From Pseudoxanthomonas sp. (lineage in GTDB: Bacteria; Pseudomonadota; Gammaproteobacteria; Xanthomonadales; Xanthomonadaceae): a stretch of DNA of 34,434 bases. A program made the translations under genes and the position numbers. Where the stretch lies: positions 1 to 34,434 of the forward strand of contig NZ_JANJUE010000128.1 in NCBI RefSeq assembly GCF_024710765.1, given 5' to 3'. Every line of letters starts with the position of its first letter. Position 1 is the stretch's first letter. The notes under the pieces are model-generated. The model saw nothing but the letters and a program-made list of their open reading frames with translations, had not been told where the DNA came from and ran no database searches. Shown here one piece after another: positions 6,884 through 12,439 of the stretch.

Positions 6884-7426
6884 TTACGAACGGACCTCGC
6901 GCCACTGACCTGGCGCGAGATCATCCAGTGCGACATTGCCCATCGCCACGCGCACCAGGCGCAGGGTCGGCAAGCCGACGGCGGCGGTCATCCGCCGCAC
7001 CTGCCGGTTGCGGCCTTCGCTGATTCGGATTTCCAGCCACGTATCGGGCACCGTCTTGCGGAAACGCACCGGCGGATCCCGCGGCCACAGCGCGGGATCC
7101 GGATCCAGCCGGCGCACCTCGGCCGGTCGGGTCGGTCCATCGTTCAGCACCACCCCGCGCCGCAGCGCGTCGAGCTGCGCGTCCTGCGGCGTGCCTTCCA
7201 CCTGCGCCCAGTAGGTCTTGGCCTGCTTGTGGCGCGGATCGGTCAGCCGGTGCGCCAGTCCGCCGTCATCGGTGAGCAGCAGCAAGCCCTCGCTGTCGTA
7301 GTCCAGCCGACCCGCCGCGTAGACCCGCGGCGGCAGATCGAATTCCGCCAGCGTCCGCCGGGGCGGATCGCTGCGATCGGTGAACTGGCACAGCACGTTG
7401 AAGGGCTTGTTGAACGCGATCAGCAC
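6884..7426 (-). CDS. rluE: 23S rRNA pseudouridine synthase RluE
   Basis: This is an RsuA/RluB/E/F-type pseudouridine synthase of 180 residues without an S4 domain, as in E. coli RluE, which modifies U2457 of 23S rRNA. The N-terminus FNKPFNVLCQFTD is typical of RluE. The catalytic Asp42 lies in AAGRLDYDSEGLLLLT. Further family blocks are LNDGPTRPAEV, LWPRDPPVR, EGRNRQVRRMTAAVGLPTLRL and a WREVRS end. All match my recollection of RluE closely, so the specific assignment is stronger than the family alone. The gene lies 16 bases after the stop of the exported methyltransferase on the same strand and may be cotranscribed with it. Confidence 0.94.
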   Translation of the reverse strand: MLIAFNKPFNVLCQFTDRSDPPRRTLAEFDLPPRVYAAGRLDYDSEGLLLLTDDGGLAHRLTDPRHKQAKTYWAQVEGTPQDAQLDALRRGVVLNDGPTRPAEVRRLDPDPALWPRDPPVRFRKTVPDTWLEIRISEGRNRQVRRMTAAVGLPTLRLVRVAMGNVALDDLAPGQWREVRS

Positions 7427-7442
7427 GGACCAGCGGCTCGAC

Positions 7443-8282
7443 TCAGGGCTTCACGAACCGCAGCGTCATCCGATCGCTTTCGCCGATGGCTTTGTACTTC
7501 TCCGCGTCCTTGGGATCGTGATTGTTGGACGGCGGCAGGGTCCACACACCGTTGGGATGATCCTTGGTGTCGCGCGGATTGGCGTTGATCTCGCTCTTGC
7601 CGTCCAGCCGGAATCCGGCCGCCTCGGCCAGCGCGATCACCTGCGCTTCGCCCACATAGCCGCTGTTGTCGTCCGCCGGCACGTCACGCTTGGCGCGGTG
7701 TTCGACCACGCCCAGCACGCCGCCTGGCTTGAGTACGTCGAAGAAGCCCTTGAACATGCCTTCGGCCTGCCCGGCCGAGCGCCAGTTGTGCACGTTGCGG
7801 AAAGTCAGCACGAGATCCGCCGAGGCCGGCGGGCCGAACACCGGCGCCGACGGCGAATACGCCACCACCTTGGTCGTGTCGTACAGCGCCGGCGAGGCGG
7901 CGAACTTCTTCTCCAGTCCGTCCTTGCTGCGCTGCTGGTAGTCGCGACCACCGCCCTGCGCGACCGCCGCCGGATCCACGATCGCCGCCACGTACTGGCC
8001 GCTCCCGCGTAGATACGGCGCCAGGATCTCCGAATACCAGCCGCCGCCCGGGGTGATCTCGACGACGGTCTGTCCCGGCTTCAGGCCGAAGAACGACAGC
8101 GTCTCGGCGGGGTGGCGGTAGCCGTCGCGGGCCACGTTGGCCGGGGTGCGCCAATCACCCTTGATCGCGCCATCGAGCGTGATGGCCGCATCGGCGGCGG
8201 CGGACGAGGCGTCCTGCGCATGCGCGAGCGCGGGCACGCCCAGGGCCAACAGCACGGCGAGGCAGATCGAATGCGGCTTCAT
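7443..8282 (-). CDS. Exported class I SAM-dependent methyltransferase-like protein
   Basis: This is a 279-residue protein of the 'predicted methyltransferase' group (COG4798-like). It begins with a clear Sec signal peptide (MKPHSICLAVLLALGVPALAHA, probable cleavage after AHA). Residues 50-80 contain the SAM-binding motif I region, GQTVVEITPGGGWYSEIL. Later come DLVLTFRNVHNW (motif IV/post-motif region) and LKPGGVLGVVEHR (motif VI-like). An apparently intact SAM fold after a signal peptide is odd, because SAM is a cytoplasmic cofactor. The protein may bind another ligand in the periplasm, or act before export. ATG 8282 is the only sensible start for the signal peptide. rluE follows 16 bases downstream. 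Confidence 0.85.
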   Translation of the reverse strand: MKPHSICLAVLLALGVPALAHAQDASSAAADAAITLDGAIKGDWRTPANVARDGYRHPAETLSFFGLKPGQTVVEITPGGGWYSEILAPYLRGSGQYVAAIVDPAAVAQGGGRDYQQRSKDGLEKKFAASPALYDTTKVVAYSPSAPVFGPPASADLVLTFRNVHNWRSAGQAEGMFKGFFDVLKPGGVLGVVEHRAKRDVPADDNSGYVGEAQVIALAEAAGFRLDGKSEINANPRDTKDHPNGVWTLPPSNNHDPKDAEKYKAIGESDRMTLRFVKP

Positions 8283-8460
8283 CGGTGGTCTCCGGGGGAA
8301 AGTGCGGCGAGCCTATCACGCATGTGCAACGCGGCACGGCTGAATGCCCGCATGCCGCTTATGTGGAATTTACGCGGCGGGGCGCTGGCCGGAATGGTCC
8401 GTTTACGCCCCCGGCGCCTAGCCTGTTTCCACCGCGCGAAAGCGCGCCTGGAAACCCGGC

Positions 8461-8898
8461 ATGAACCTCCTGATCCTCGAGGGCCCGCACGCGTCCTCCG
8501 CCCCCGGCGCGGCGATGGCGCCCTCCGCGCTGCGCGGCCTGCGGGCACGGGCGCGCGCCTGCGGCCACCGCGTGTTCCATTGCCGTTGCACGGACACGGA
8601 CGCGTTGCTCACCGGCCTGCGCGCGTGCGCCGCGCTCGACGTGCGGATGCTGTTGCTGGATGCGGGCGACCTCGCCGCCAACGCCCCCGCGCTGCCGGCC
8701 CTGCGCGAATCGCTGGAACAGGTGCCGATGCCCTACATCGAAGTGCACGACGACAGCGCGCAGGTGCTGGAGTCGCGCCTGGACCTGCGCCATCCGCCGT
8801 TGGCGACGGTGGTGTTCAACCGCGACCGCGTGCAGGGCCACGTGCTGGCGCTGTCGATCGCCCTGCGCCGCCTGCGGACGCCGGCCGGCGACATCTGA
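8461..8898 (+). CDS. Degenerate type II dehydroquinase-like protein, copy 1
   Basis: This is a 145-residue protein whose layout follows type II 3-dehydroquinate dehydratase (AroQ). It has strand 1 NLLILEGPH (AroQ: LVLNGPN), a helix then AxxxGHRVFHCRCTD (AroQ: AxxxGHHLxHLQSN), VRMLLLDAGDLAANAPAL (AroQ: IIINPxxxTHTSxAL), MPYIEVHDDSA (AroQ: PxIEVHLSN), and a final LALSIALRRL helix. The catalytic parts are largely gone. The flexible lid with the active-site Arg and Tyr is replaced by an Ala-rich stretch, the Asn of the NP motif is Asp, and the THTS His is missing. The His of IEVH remains. It is therefore probably not a shikimate-pathway enzyme. A second copy follows after 36 bases. The alignment was made by eye from memory of AroQ. 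Confidence 0.75.
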   Translation: MNLLILEGPHASSAPGAAMAPSALRGLRARARACGHRVFHCRCTDTDALLTGLRACAALDVRMLLLDAGDLAANAPALPALRESLEQVPMPYIEVHDDSAQVLESRLDLRHPPLATVVFNRDRVQGHVLALSIALRRLRTPAGDI

Positions 8899-8934
8899 AT
8901 CCGCCTCCTTCCTCCCCGCAACCCGGAGCTTCCC

Positions 8935-9381
8935 ATGTCACTGTTGCTCATCCGCGGTCCGGAGCGCCGCGCCCATGGCAGCGAACCGCCGCCGCCGTTG
9001 CCCGCGCCGGTCGTGCGCGCGCTGGCCGAGCGCGCCGCCGCCGCCGGCAAGACCCTCGCCGTGCGCGTGTGCGCCAACGAAGCCGAGTACCTGCATGCGC
9101 TGGATGGCGCCCGGCTCACCCGCACCGAACTGCTGCTGCTGGACCCCGGCAGCGCTGCCACCAGCGCGCGCCTGCATGCCGCGGTCGACCACGCCGGCAT
9201 TCCCTACATCGAGGTCCACGATGACGACTGCGATGCGCCGGAACCGCGCCTGCCGCCCTCGCGTGCCTGCCTCGCGGTGGCCCAGGGCTATTGCGCGCAG
9301 AGCTACACGCTGGCGCTGGAGATGGCGCTGGAGCATCTGGGCTGCGCCGAGTGCGAGTCCGAACGCCATGTCGGCACCTGA
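8935..9381 (+). CDS. Degenerate type II dehydroquinase-like protein, copy 2
   Basis: This 148-residue protein is a paralogue of the preceding gene and is closer to AroQ. It has LLLIRGPE at the start, AAAAGKTLAVRVCANEAEY, TELLLLDPGSAATSARLHAA (AroQ: IIINPxAxTHTSVALRDA), GIPYIEVHDDDCD (AroQ: IPFIEVHLSNVH), and AQGYCAQSYTLALEMALEHL (AroQ: GLGATGYRLALESALEQL). The lid Tyr and Arg are absent, Asn is replaced by Asp in the NP motif, and the THTS His is lost. The fold is likely kept while dehydroquinase activity is not. A good ribosome site (CCGGAG) lies 7 bases before the ATG. The end overlaps the next start by 14 bases, so the three genes look like one operon. Confidence 0.78.
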   Translation: MSLLLIRGPERRAHGSEPPPPLPAPVVRALAERAAAAGKTLAVRVCANEAEYLHALDGARLTRTELLLLDPGSAATSARLHAAVDHAGIPYIEVHDDDCDAPEPRLPPSRACLAVAQGYCAQSYTLALEMALEHLGCAECESERHVGT

Positions 9382-9589
9382 TTCCGCGCGTCCTGGCGCC
9401 GGCTACTTCGCCGACTACGAGGTCTACGCGATGGGCGAGGCGATCGCCTGGGGCCAGATCACGCTGGCCTGTTCCAGCGAGGACGACCGCGAACCGGCGG
9501 CGCTGATCCGCCGATTGCGCCAGGCCGCCGCCGACCAGCACGGCGCCGAGGCCGGTGCGATCCGGTTGCGCCAGGTCTGCCGGCTCTAG
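9368..9589 (+). CDS. Small acidic protein following the dehydroquinase-like pair
   Basis: This is a 73-residue protein I do not recognise. It starts inside the end of the second dehydroquinase-like gene (14-base overlap). Its stop shares the palindromic tetranucleotide CTAG with the stop of the convergent patZ gene. Visible features are a Gly/Tyr-rich start (GAGYFADYEVYAMGEAIAWGQITLACSSED) suggesting beta strands, then a helix-like stretch (PAALIRRLRQAAADQHG). There is no signal peptide or membrane segment. The tight overlap suggests it works with, or is made in proportion to, the upstream pair. The protein-like composition and coupling support a real gene, but no homologue is known to me. 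Confidence 0.6.
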   Translation: MSAPDSARPGAGYFADYEVYAMGEAIAWGQITLACSSEDDREPAALIRRLRQAAADQHGAEAGAIRLRQVCRL

Positions 9590-12306
9590 CCGGCGTCTTC
9601 CACGCGTCCGTCGATGGGCAGTTCCACGTCCATCAGGGTCGGCTCGTCGGGATCGGCGCGGATGCGGAAACCCAGTTGCTCGCACATCGCCAGCATGGTG
9701 CGGTTGTCGCGCAGCACCTGGCCCTCGACCACCTTCAGGCCAAGCCAGCGGGCGTACTCGATCATGATCCGCATCAGCCGCCAGCCGATGCCGTGGCCCT
9801 TCAGATCCGAGCGGACCAGGATGCCGTACTCGCCGCGATCGTAGTTGGCATCGGCATGCAGCCGCACCGCGCCCAGCATCTGCCCGCTGGCCGGATCCAG
9901 CGCCACCAGCGCCATCGAACGGGCGTAGTCGATCTGGGTCAGGCGGGCGATGAACTCGTGGCTGAAATGGCGCACCGACTGGAAGAAGCGCAGGCGCAGA
10001 TCCTCGTCGGTGACGTGGGTGAAGAACTCGCGGAACATCGCGTCGTCCTCCGGCCGCACCGGCCGCACGAACGCGTCGCTGCCGTCGGCCAGGGTGATCG
10101 TGCGTTCCCATTCCTTCGGGTACGGGAAGATCGCGAAGCGCGGATGACCGCGGCCCTTGTGCAGTTTCCGGCCCGGCGCCACCGCGATGCGCGCGTCCAC
10201 CGCGATCACGCCGTCGCGATCGGCCAGCAGCGGATTGATGTCCAGCTGGCGGATTTCGGGGATGTCGGCCGCCAGTTGCGCCAGCTTCACCAGCACCAGC
10301 GCGATCGCGCGTTCGTCGGCGGCCGGCACGTCGCGATAGGCCTTGAGCACGCGCGAGACCCGGGTGCGGCCAATCAGTTCGTGCGCCAGCCGCAGATCCA
10401 GCGGCGGCAGCGCCAGCGCCTTGTCGTCGATCACGTCCACGGCGGTGCCGCCGCGCCCGAACACCACCACCGGGCCAAACACCTCGTCGTCGGCGATGCC
10501 GGCAATCAGCTCGCGCGCCTTGGGCCGCAGCAGGGTCGGCTGCACCAATACCCCACCGATGCGCGCATCCGGGCGCGCGCTGCGCGCGCGCTGCAGGATG
10601 CCGGCCGCCGCCTCGCGCACGGCGTCGGCGCTGACCAGGTTCAGGCGCACGCCATCGATGTCGGATTTGTGCGGAATGTCCGGCGACAGGATCTTCACCG
10701 CCACCGCCATGCCCTGGGCGAGCAACGGCGCGGCCACCTGGGCGGCATCCTCCGGATCGCGCGCGCGGCGCAGCGGCGCGACCGGAATGCCGTAGGCGGC
10801 GAGCACGTGCGCGGTGGCCAGCGGATCCAGCCAGTGCTGGCCGTCCTTCAGCGCGTGCTCGACCAGCGCGCGCGCCGCGTCGGTGTCGACCACGAAATCC
10901 TCGGGCAGGCTGGGCGGCGTTTCCATCAGCGCGGCCTGCGCTTCGCGATAGCGCACCAGATGCATGAAGCCGCCGACCGCGTCGGACTCGGTTGGATAGT
11001 TGGGAATCCGCGCCGCGTCCAGCACCTCGGCGGCGGCGGGATCGTGGCCCAGCCAGACCGCGAACACGGGCTTGTGCGGACCGTGCGCGGGGCGCGCGCG
11101 CAGCACCCGGGTCATCGCCTCGGCGGTCTCCACCGCCGAGGACAGCACGGTGGGCACGTTGACCGCCAGCAGCGCGTCGTTCTGTGGATCCTCCAGCAGC
11201 GCCTCGATGGTGGCGGCGTAGCGCGCGGCGTCGATATCGGTCAGCAGATCCACCGGATTGCTGCGCGACCAGCCCGCCGGGAGCATCGCGTCGAGGCGAT
11301 CGCGGGTATCGTCGGACAGCGCCGCCAGCGTGCCGCCCAGTTCGTGCAGGCGATCCACGGACAGCGCGCCCACGCCGCCGCCGTTGGTCAGGATGGCCAA
11401 CCGCCGGCCGGGGAAGGCACGCAACCGGCCCAGCGTCTCGGCGGCGGAGAACAATTCGTCCAGCGAACGCACCTGCAGCAGGCCGGCGCGCCGGAACGCG
11501 GCGTCGTACACCACGCGCGGATGGGCCAGGTGCTGGACGTGGGTGCTGTCGGCGGCGGCGCGCGCGGTCGCCACCGCGGACTGGCCGGACTTCACCACCA
11601 CCACCGGCTTGGTGCGCGCGGCGGCGCGCGCGGCCGACATGAACTTGCGCGCGTCCTTGATCGCCTCGACGTACAGCAGGATCGCGCGGGTGCGGTGATC
11701 GGTGGCGAAGTAGTCCAGCAGGTCGGCGAAATCCACGTCCAGCGCGTCGCCCAGCGATACCACCGCGGAAAATCCGATCGAGCGGCCGACGCTCCATTCC
11801 ACCAGTCCGCCGGAAATCGCGCCGGACTGCGAAATCAGCGCCAGGTCGCCCGCGCCCGGCAGGCGTCCGGCGAGGCTGGCGTTGAGGCCGACGTGCGGCG
11901 CGATGACGCCCAGGCAGTTCGGCCCCAGCACGCGCAGGCCCTTCTCGCGCGCGATGGCTTCCAGCTGCGCCGCCGGCGAATCCGGACCCGAACCCATCGC
12001 CGCGGTCAGCACCGCCACCGCGCCCGCGCCACATTCGGCGGCCTCGCGGGCGATGCCCGGCACGGTGGCCGGCGGCGTGGCGATCACCACCAGATCCGGC
12101 TTCCACGGCAGATCCCGCAGCCGCCGGGCGGTGGTCACGCCGTCGATGCTCGCCGGATGCAGGTTGACCAGTCCGATGGGGCCACCGAAGCCGCCTTCCA
12201 GCAGGTTGTTGATCACCGCGCGACCGACCGACCGCGGTCGCGACCGGCTGCCGACCACCGCCACCGAGGCGGGCCGGAAGATGGATTGCAGGCGGTAGGT
12301 GCTCAT
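9586..12306 (-). CDS. patZ: PatZ-type protein lysine acetyltransferase / acyl-CoA ligase-like fusion
   Basis: This is a 906-residue multidomain protein counted from ATG 12306 (MSTYRLQSIF). An in-frame ATG at 12336 is less likely. Domain order is CoA-binding Rossmann (ASVAVVGSRSRPRSVG), succinyl-CoA-ligase-like domain (GPNCLGVIAPHVGLNAS, ISQSGAISGG, KPVVVVKSGQ), a region with VYDAAFRRAGLL, an ATP-grasp-like domain (VAVKILSPDIPHKSDIDGV), and a C-terminal GNAT domain with the acetyl-CoA loop LKGHGIGWRLMRIM. The order and many blocks match E. coli PatZ/YfiQ, which acetylates lysines of Acs and other proteins. A His remains in STHVQHLA, where the NDP-forming ligases have their phospho-His and where I recall E. 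coli PatZ lacking it. No ligase activity is proved by that. It stands alone, convergent with the dehydroquinase-like operon. Confidence 0.9.
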   Translation of the reverse strand: MSTYRLQSIFRPASVAVVGSRSRPRSVGRAVINNLLEGGFGGPIGLVNLHPASIDGVTTARRLRDLPWKPDLVVIATPPATVPGIAREAAECGAGAVAVLTAAMGSGPDSPAAQLEAIAREKGLRVLGPNCLGVIAPHVGLNASLAGRLPGAGDLALISQSGAISGGLVEWSVGRSIGFSAVVSLGDALDVDFADLLDYFATDHRTRAILLYVEAIKDARKFMSAARAAARTKPVVVVKSGQSAVATARAAADSTHVQHLAHPRVVYDAAFRRAGLLQVRSLDELFSAAETLGRLRAFPGRRLAILTNGGGVGALSVDRLHELGGTLAALSDDTRDRLDAMLPAGWSRSNPVDLLTDIDAARYAATIEALLEDPQNDALLAVNVPTVLSSAVETAEAMTRVLRARPAHGPHKPVFAVWLGHDPAAAEVLDAARIPNYPTESDAVGGFMHLVRYREAQAALMETPPSLPEDFVVDTDAARALVEHALKDGQHWLDPLATAHVLAAYGIPVAPLRRARDPEDAAQVAAPLLAQGMAVAVKILSPDIPHKSDIDGVRLNLVSADAVREAAAGILQRARSARPDARIGGVLVQPTLLRPKARELIAGIADDEVFGPVVVFGRGGTAVDVIDDKALALPPLDLRLAHELIGRTRVSRVLKAYRDVPAADERAIALVLVKLAQLAADIPEIRQLDINPLLADRDGVIAVDARIAVAPGRKLHKGRGHPRFAIFPYPKEWERTITLADGSDAFVRPVRPEDDAMFREFFTHVTDEDLRLRFFQSVRHFSHEFIARLTQIDYARSMALVALDPASGQMLGAVRLHADANYDRGEYGILVRSDLKGHGIGWRLMRIMIEYARWLGLKVVEGQVLRDNRTMLAMCEQLGFRIRADPDEPTLMDVELPIDGRVEDAG

Positions 12307-12439
12307 CGCGGGCCGGAAAGACGGGAGGCGCGACAAAGGTAACGCGACGGCTGTCAGCAGGCCATGATCAGGTCGCTGTCCGGGGGTGAGTGCCTTGTGA
12401 TACTGCCGCTTGCCCGACGCACCTCTTGCCCGACCGCCG

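Follow-up and report, generated by a model that had tools for sequence, protein, structure and literature searches.

Three adjacent genes of Pseudoxanthomonas sp., here called A, B and C, probably form an accessory part of the KdpDE (potassium-limitation) regulon, a pseudoenzyme module in which two proteins with the fold of type II dehydroquinase (AroQ) carry a rebuilt pocket; we put the probability of this reading at about 0.7. The genes lie in what we call the window, the whole stretch of 34,434 nucleotides analysed (contig NZ_JANJUE010000128.1). An earlier note on this DNA had proposed two repurposed pseudoenzymes, coupled in an operon to a small partner. The fold, the lost catalytic residues and an intact aroQ elsewhere in the genome uphold that proposal, as do purifying selection on A and B and the conservation of the genes, but it contained no clue to the pathway. 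What goes beyond it is the promoter: boxes of the KdpE type, together with the co-occurrence with kdp, appear to supply that clue.

All three open reading frames are present at the positions previously given for them (Table 1), and the 73 codons of C begin inside B with an overlap of 14 bases, as had been described. Upstream, the divergent neighbour of gene A (7443-8282, minus strand) encodes a secreted-looking, methyltransferase-like protein whose Pfam matches are all sub-threshold. Downstream, a convergent gene (9586-12336, minus strand) overlaps gene C at the stop codons and encodes an acetate-CoA-ligase-like and ATP-grasp protein with a C-terminal GNAT domain. A scan of positions 8250-9700 for sigma-70 promoters and terminators gave no match.

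Table 1. Genes and promoter elements of the module, in window coordinates
Feature	Position	Strand	Basis
Distal half-site CTTATG, 11 bp ahead of the next box	8358..8363	+	sequence
TTTACG box, KdpE-type half-site	8369..8374	+	part of the box pair at 8369-8407, a pattern with two matches in the genome
Proximal element GGAATGGTCCGTTTACGCC, with TTTACG box at 8402-8407	8391..8409	+	sequence
Gene A, predicted AroQ-derived pseudoenzyme, 145 aa	8461..8898	+	open reading frame found at this position
Gene B, predicted AroQ-derived pseudoenzyme, 148 aa, with a conserved C-terminus that ends in HVGT	8935..9381	+	
Gene C, 73-aa partner, unnamed family, beta-beta-alpha-beta model	9368..9589	+	ATG at 9368, stop at 9589

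That A and B are homologues of type II dehydroquinases, as the earlier note had held, is confirmed by profile searches with both and by structure comparison for B. Gene B matches Pfam DHquinase_II at 26.4 bits, above the cut-off of 23.3, and gene A scores 12.7 bits, under it; profiles built from their relatives reach AroQ structures in the PDB with E values of 5.9e-13 for A and 3.8e-20 for B. With the AlphaFold2 model of B (pLDDT 86.8) the top Foldseek matches are type II dehydroquinases, 4l8l first (E 8.9e-8). By fold and profile similarity the proteins thus belong to the type II dehydroquinase homologous superfamily. A and B are 38% identical to each other across 58 residues. An unrooted tree built from 56 sequences has a branch with 100/100 support that splits AroQ from A and B together, and B does not form one clean group in it; A and B appear to be old sister groups. 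A separate, intact aroQ is present in the source genome (191.9 bits).

The residues that make AroQ an enzyme are, for the most part, gone. In our alignment of 29 AroQ, 53 B and 40 A rows, for which we assume the residue roles and the M. tuberculosis numbering of the AroQ positions, Asn12, Arg19, Tyr24, Asn75, His81 and Arg112 are invariant in all 29 AroQ rows. Asn12, Tyr24, Asn75, His81 and Arg112 occur in 3, 0, 0, 2 and 0 of the 53 B rows, respectively, and each is missing from every one of the 40 A rows, so that neither protein has the catalytic residues of a type II dehydroquinase. The earlier claims that the lid Tyr, the Asn of the NP motif and the His of the THTS motif are lost from both proteins and that the His of the EVH motif is kept are therefore sound. 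Two further claims need qualification. Loss of the lid Arg is true of the window proteins, which have Glu (B) and Ala (A), but 13 of the 53 B rows align an Arg with position 19, where the alignment has gaps. Loss of the NP motif is correct as regards the Asn in A and B, but in B the change is merely from Asn to Asp, giving DPG (Asp in 53/53). On these sequences A and B are best filed as AroQ homologues, not as dehydroquinases.

What has taken the place of these residues is itself conserved. Glu99 and His101 are retained (52/53 each in B; 40/40 and 37/40 in A), Asp replaces Asn75 in all 53 B rows and in 38/40 A rows, and a Cys stands inside the former QSN motif (B 52/53, A 28/40). Positions 102 and 103 are Asp in 46/53 and 47/53 of the B rows and in 30/40 and 24/40 of the A rows, and the former GFG motif has Tyr in B (53/53) and Asp in A (32/40). 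The columns with new letters presumably sit at the strand ends that line the AroQ pocket. For B, 16 strand-end columns of our own choosing are more conserved than the rest (entropy 0.74 versus 1.62, p 0.00035); for A the difference is less clear (1.20 versus 1.63, p 0.04). A and B thus share a rebuilt, conserved pocket made up of Cys, Asp and Glu-x-His-Asp-Asp, to which B adds a Tyr and A an Asp. Values of dN/dS between the window and its two nearest relatives are 0.14-0.19 for B, 0.36-0.39 for A and 0.24-0.30 for C; between those two relatives they are 0.13, 0.12 and 0.92, respectively. With conserved new pocket letters and low dN/dS, A and B have been remodelled and are not decaying.

Gene C encodes a protein with YFADYE at its start and RL at its end. 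Its model (pLDDT 88) has a beta-beta-alpha-beta fold, for which the best matches are archaeal LX and its eukaryotic ribosomal counterparts, at a Foldseek probability of 0.97 and an E value of 0.15 that is not significant; the likeness is one of fold only, and a sequence relation was not found. We take the eukaryotic counterpart to be eL20. Searches of C by Pfam, PDB profile and fold gave no significant relative, and the best PDB profile match (E 0.0088, across half of C) was judged to be chance. The model gives the C-terminal tail of B little confidence (its last block has a pLDDT of 44), yet 50 of 53 B rows end in VGT. The idea that this tail is conserved merely because the start of C overlaps it was rejected, because lineages without C (L054, L056-L058 and L060) retain the VGT end.

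The main evidence on function comes from the DNA in front of gene A, where CTTATG-N5-TTTACG at 8358-8374 and a further TTTACG at 8402 form direct-repeat half-sites. The site bound by KdpE in E. coli consists of a pair of 6-bp half-sites, TTTATA and TTTACA, separated by 5 bp and hence 11 bp apart (PMC3264566). The proximal sequence GGAATGGTCCGTTTACGCC is a variant of an extended element, CAT(A/G)GCG-CTTTACG, that is common to kdp and pseudo-AroQ promoters. Across differing gene orders and genera the box pattern is found ahead of the first gene of the cluster: at least one TTTA[CT][GC] is present in 82 of 84 distinct first-gene upstream regions and at least two in 55, the only box-free regions being two from genus g26 (L056 and L057). 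All 57 pairs of such boxes are spaced by 11, 32/33 or 43/44 bp, approximately multiples of the helical turn, as are 131 of 139 pairs of the looser TTAY[GC], eight being out of phase. Among 430 control upstream regions of other genes in the loci, from which genes at locus positions 7300-8500 were left out, as were those close to the match for L073, L085, L088 and the window, 13 have at least one box and a single one has at least two. That one precedes a TorF porin gene beside kdpA.

The layout of the boxes is the same in front of kdp. Relative to the proximal box, a box lies at -33/-32 in 48 of 49 pseudo-AroQ segments (the distinct ones among the 84 upstream regions with TTTAYG at most 72 bases from the start), and TTAY[GC] lies at -44/-43 in 21 of 49. 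All 27 kdp segments have a further box 11 bp ahead of the distal one, that is, at -44/-43. These segments are 27 of 30 fetched kdp loci and were chosen for having the box pair, so that only the -44/-43 box is independent evidence there. Their proximal box sits within the element CATAGCGGCTTTACG, and the pseudo-AroQ promoters have a matching layout.

In the source genome TTTAYG-N26/27-TTTAYG has two matches, one before gene A (8369-8407) and one before the TorF porin gene next to kdpA; the reversed pattern, used as a control, has none. The kdpA gene is followed by KdpD- and KdpE-like genes, named from their best NCBIfam matches, both under cut-off. This kdp operon lies on two contig ends (L249, G000:C423:7500-11260, and L250, G000:C383:30000-38923), the one carrying the TorF porin gene and a truncated kdpA and the other running from kdpA to the KdpE-like gene. 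There are small differences between the two kdpA copies, and the assembly may perhaps contain a mixture of strains (contamination 4.5).

Across 178 genomes of the family, the set used for all family counts of A, B, C and the box pair and one in which related genomes are not independent, the box pair has 129 matches, of which 61 lie upstream of kdpA, 24 ahead of pseudo-AroQ genes and 44 elsewhere (16 in kdp genomes and 28 in genomes without kdp). The raw count is not special, since the reversed control gives 108; divided by genome type, box pair and control give 101 versus 52 matches in kdp genomes and 28 versus 56 in genomes without kdp. The evidence is location, with 85 of the 129 matches at two kinds of gene, and not count, the reversed control being known by its totals only. 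The pair lies at kdp in 56 of 65 kdp genomes, so that the module and kdp carry the same boxes; KdpA was matched in 66 genomes, but one (G146) has only a 40-bit fragment and was not counted. The exact pair precedes the module in just 23 of 43 B genomes; in the rest a single letter differs or the boxes stand at another of the phased spacings.

Seven of the 16 other matches in kdp genomes belong to genus g17, one per genome and with similar matched strings. The two that were fetched (L247:2363-3208 and L248:1687-2484) precede a gene for an outer-membrane-barrel-like protein with the motif CTDRPTKxNxxCTVP; the L247 protein has no match in NCBIfam. In Pseudoxanthomonas winnipegensis the gene of a look-alike (L079:6407-7246) separates kdpA from the trio. 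The barrel-like protein is probably another member of the regulon.

The genes themselves also travel with kdp. KdpA is found in 40 of 43 genomes with B and in 25 of 135 without it (Fisher p 4e-19, related genomes included). Counted by genus the figures are 10/11 versus 11/43 (p 1.3e-4), and permutation within genera gives p 0.029; the association is weaker once relatedness is reduced, yet it remains. The three B genomes without kdp all belong to genus g26, and none of them has A or C; the two g26 B promoters that were read lack the boxes. Conversely, 25 kdp genomes are without B, and Kdp therefore does not need the module. In four of 34 named loci kdpA adjoins the module (L077, L079, L085 and L095, from Lysobacter prati, Pseudoxanthomonas winnipegensis, one MAG and Dyella tabacisoli); that of L077 was confirmed as KdpA and the other three were called by clustering with it. 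For the remaining 30, kdpA was not among the genes found nearby by a simple ORF caller.

The module is patchily distributed. B occurs in 43 of the 178 genomes (11 of 54 genera) and C in 33, always with B and adjoining it in 33/33; C is absent from 10 of the 43. A lies beside B in 28 B genomes, elsewhere in 3, and is absent from 12, while in Rhodanobacteraceae A occurs without B. The counts for A and the adjacency of C and B were read by eye from the searches. Conservation of the trio in relatives, as expected by the earlier note, thus holds for many genomes but not for all. Gene orders vary (ABC, BC, BCA and B alone). A scan of genome contigs gave the 34 named loci in Pseudoxanthomonas, Lysobacter, Stenotrophomonas, Luteimonas and others, with A-type genes in Dyella and Rhodanobacter among them. 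Outside the family but in the same order there are a few more: G207, for example, has a gene of the B type, and family f12 has genes of the A type. A third pseudo-AroQ subfamily (L132, L177, L178 and L179, from family f12) has LLLDVDA, PYIE[IMV]HD and, here too, phased TTTACG boxes. One A-type gene near those of Dyella stands on a contig labelled Eremiobacteraeota (L092), a bin that is probably mislabelled or contaminated. In a panel of the class, B was found at E <= 1e-24 in 3 of 369 genomes, all of the window's family. Constant operon partners besides A, B and C were not seen among the neighbours, which change with genus and, by our own reading of their sequences, include histidine genes in Lysobacter (where nine loci share their flanking clusters), a TamA/TamB-like pair in Stenotrophomonas and an HslU-like gene in Luteimonas.

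Could A and B instead be a new enzyme, in which the Glu-His dyad and the new Asp and Cys act on a small acid needed at low potassium, for example an organic counter-ion that is made or broken? The conserved, non-decaying pocket residues of B (D70, E93, H95, D97, Y119 and C46) are consistent with this, as is the dN/dS of B in its two window comparisons (0.14-0.19). A known catalytic constellation is not recognised, however, the AroQ lid motif is gone and the differing neighbourhoods show no constant metabolic gene, and we regard a new enzyme as possible but rather unlikely. It is improbable that A and B are inactive subunits that enter the dodecamer of the genuine AroQ and thereby modulate the shikimate pathway. 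They have the same fold and share a genome with a genuine aroQ, but no aro gene was recognised by eye among the neighbour representatives, the box pair of the source genome lies only at the module and at kdp, and AroQ-like matches occur in 233 of 250 genomes of the order, in contrast with the patchy module.

The small size of B and C, their overlap, their patchiness and their changing neighbourhoods would also suit a toxin-antitoxin or defence module. This we consider highly improbable, since B lacks C in 10 of 43 genomes and the two are not an obligate pair, PADLOC and PHROGs give no match at E up to 1, the promoter boxes are held in common with kdp and the nine Lysobacter loci share their context. 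A different kind of doubt concerns the protein that reads the boxes. Members of the OmpR/PhoB type generally recognise direct-repeat half-sites (PMC3264566), and PhoP reads 7-bp repeats with a 4-bp spacer (PMC4832192); another regulator of this type might control both kdp and the module, which would then answer a different signal, such as phosphate or osmotic stress. The half-site nevertheless matches that of KdpE, and KdpD- and KdpE-like genes come after kdpA in the source genome, making such a regulator an unlikely choice. We consider it likely that the trio belongs to the KdpE regulon, of which its genes are candidate members.

Comparison with known systems shows how far the proteins have moved. 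With AroQ (PF01220, for example PDB 4l8l) A and B have in common the fold, the length, the GP and PxIEVH framework and the Glu-His dyad, and B matches the GxGxxxY framework also; they differ in that Asn12, the lid motif, Asn75, His81 and Arg112 are gone and a new pocket of Cys, Asp and HDD is present. With KdpDE and KdpFABC the module shares the layout of its promoter boxes, and B co-occurs with KdpA, but homology of A, B or C to a Kdp subunit or sensor was not found. Inactive shikimate-pathway domains are known in fungi, from Aro1 of C. albicans and from the QutR-type repressors. These too keep the fold of a shikimate enzyme without its activity; they differ from A and B, which are free-standing type II folds, in being parts of a multidomain protein with what we take to be the type I dehydroquinase fold. 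In Aro1 of C. albicans four of the five domains are active (PMC9074039). The abstracts searched mention no AroQ-like protein in the Kdp regulon, and a literature search, mostly at the level of abstracts, gave no earlier description of such a pseudo-AroQ system.

The preferred reading, an accessory module of the KdpDE regulon, suggests the following sequence of events. KdpD would sense low potassium, and phosphorylated KdpE would bind the TTTACG half-sites at 8358-8407, so that low potassium would induce A, B and C. Their products would then appear alongside the outer-membrane porin and the KdpFABC pump, which are encoded by an operon with the same promoter layout. Using the AroQ fold, A and B may form an assembly that probably includes both of them and C; their pocket may bind a small ligand or cation, through which the module could adjust potassium uptake or the way metabolism responds when potassium is scarce. 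That A, B and C act as a ligand-binding regulator is a tentative idea, somewhat less than an even bet. More specifically, A and B might be a non-catalytic assembly of the AroQ fold that senses a cytosolic ion or metabolite in potassium starvation and, jointly with C, gates KdpD or KdpFABC; in this version, which we consider doubtful, a retired enzyme of the shikimate pathway would provide a new layer of control in bacterial potassium homeostasis. Because the trio carries the same DNA boxes as the potassium pump, these former enzymes have probably taken on a new function under potassium shortage.

In Lysobacter, Pseudoxanthomonas, Stenotrophomonas, Luteimonas, Dyella and Rhodanobacter automatic annotation may name these proteins dehydroquinases despite their lost catalytic residues. 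The promoter evidence points them to potassium limitation. To our knowledge, the Kdp regulon has been taken to have few members apart from the pump and its sensor. If our reading is right, soluble components would be added to it and the fold of a shikimate enzyme would prove to have been re-used in ion homeostasis.
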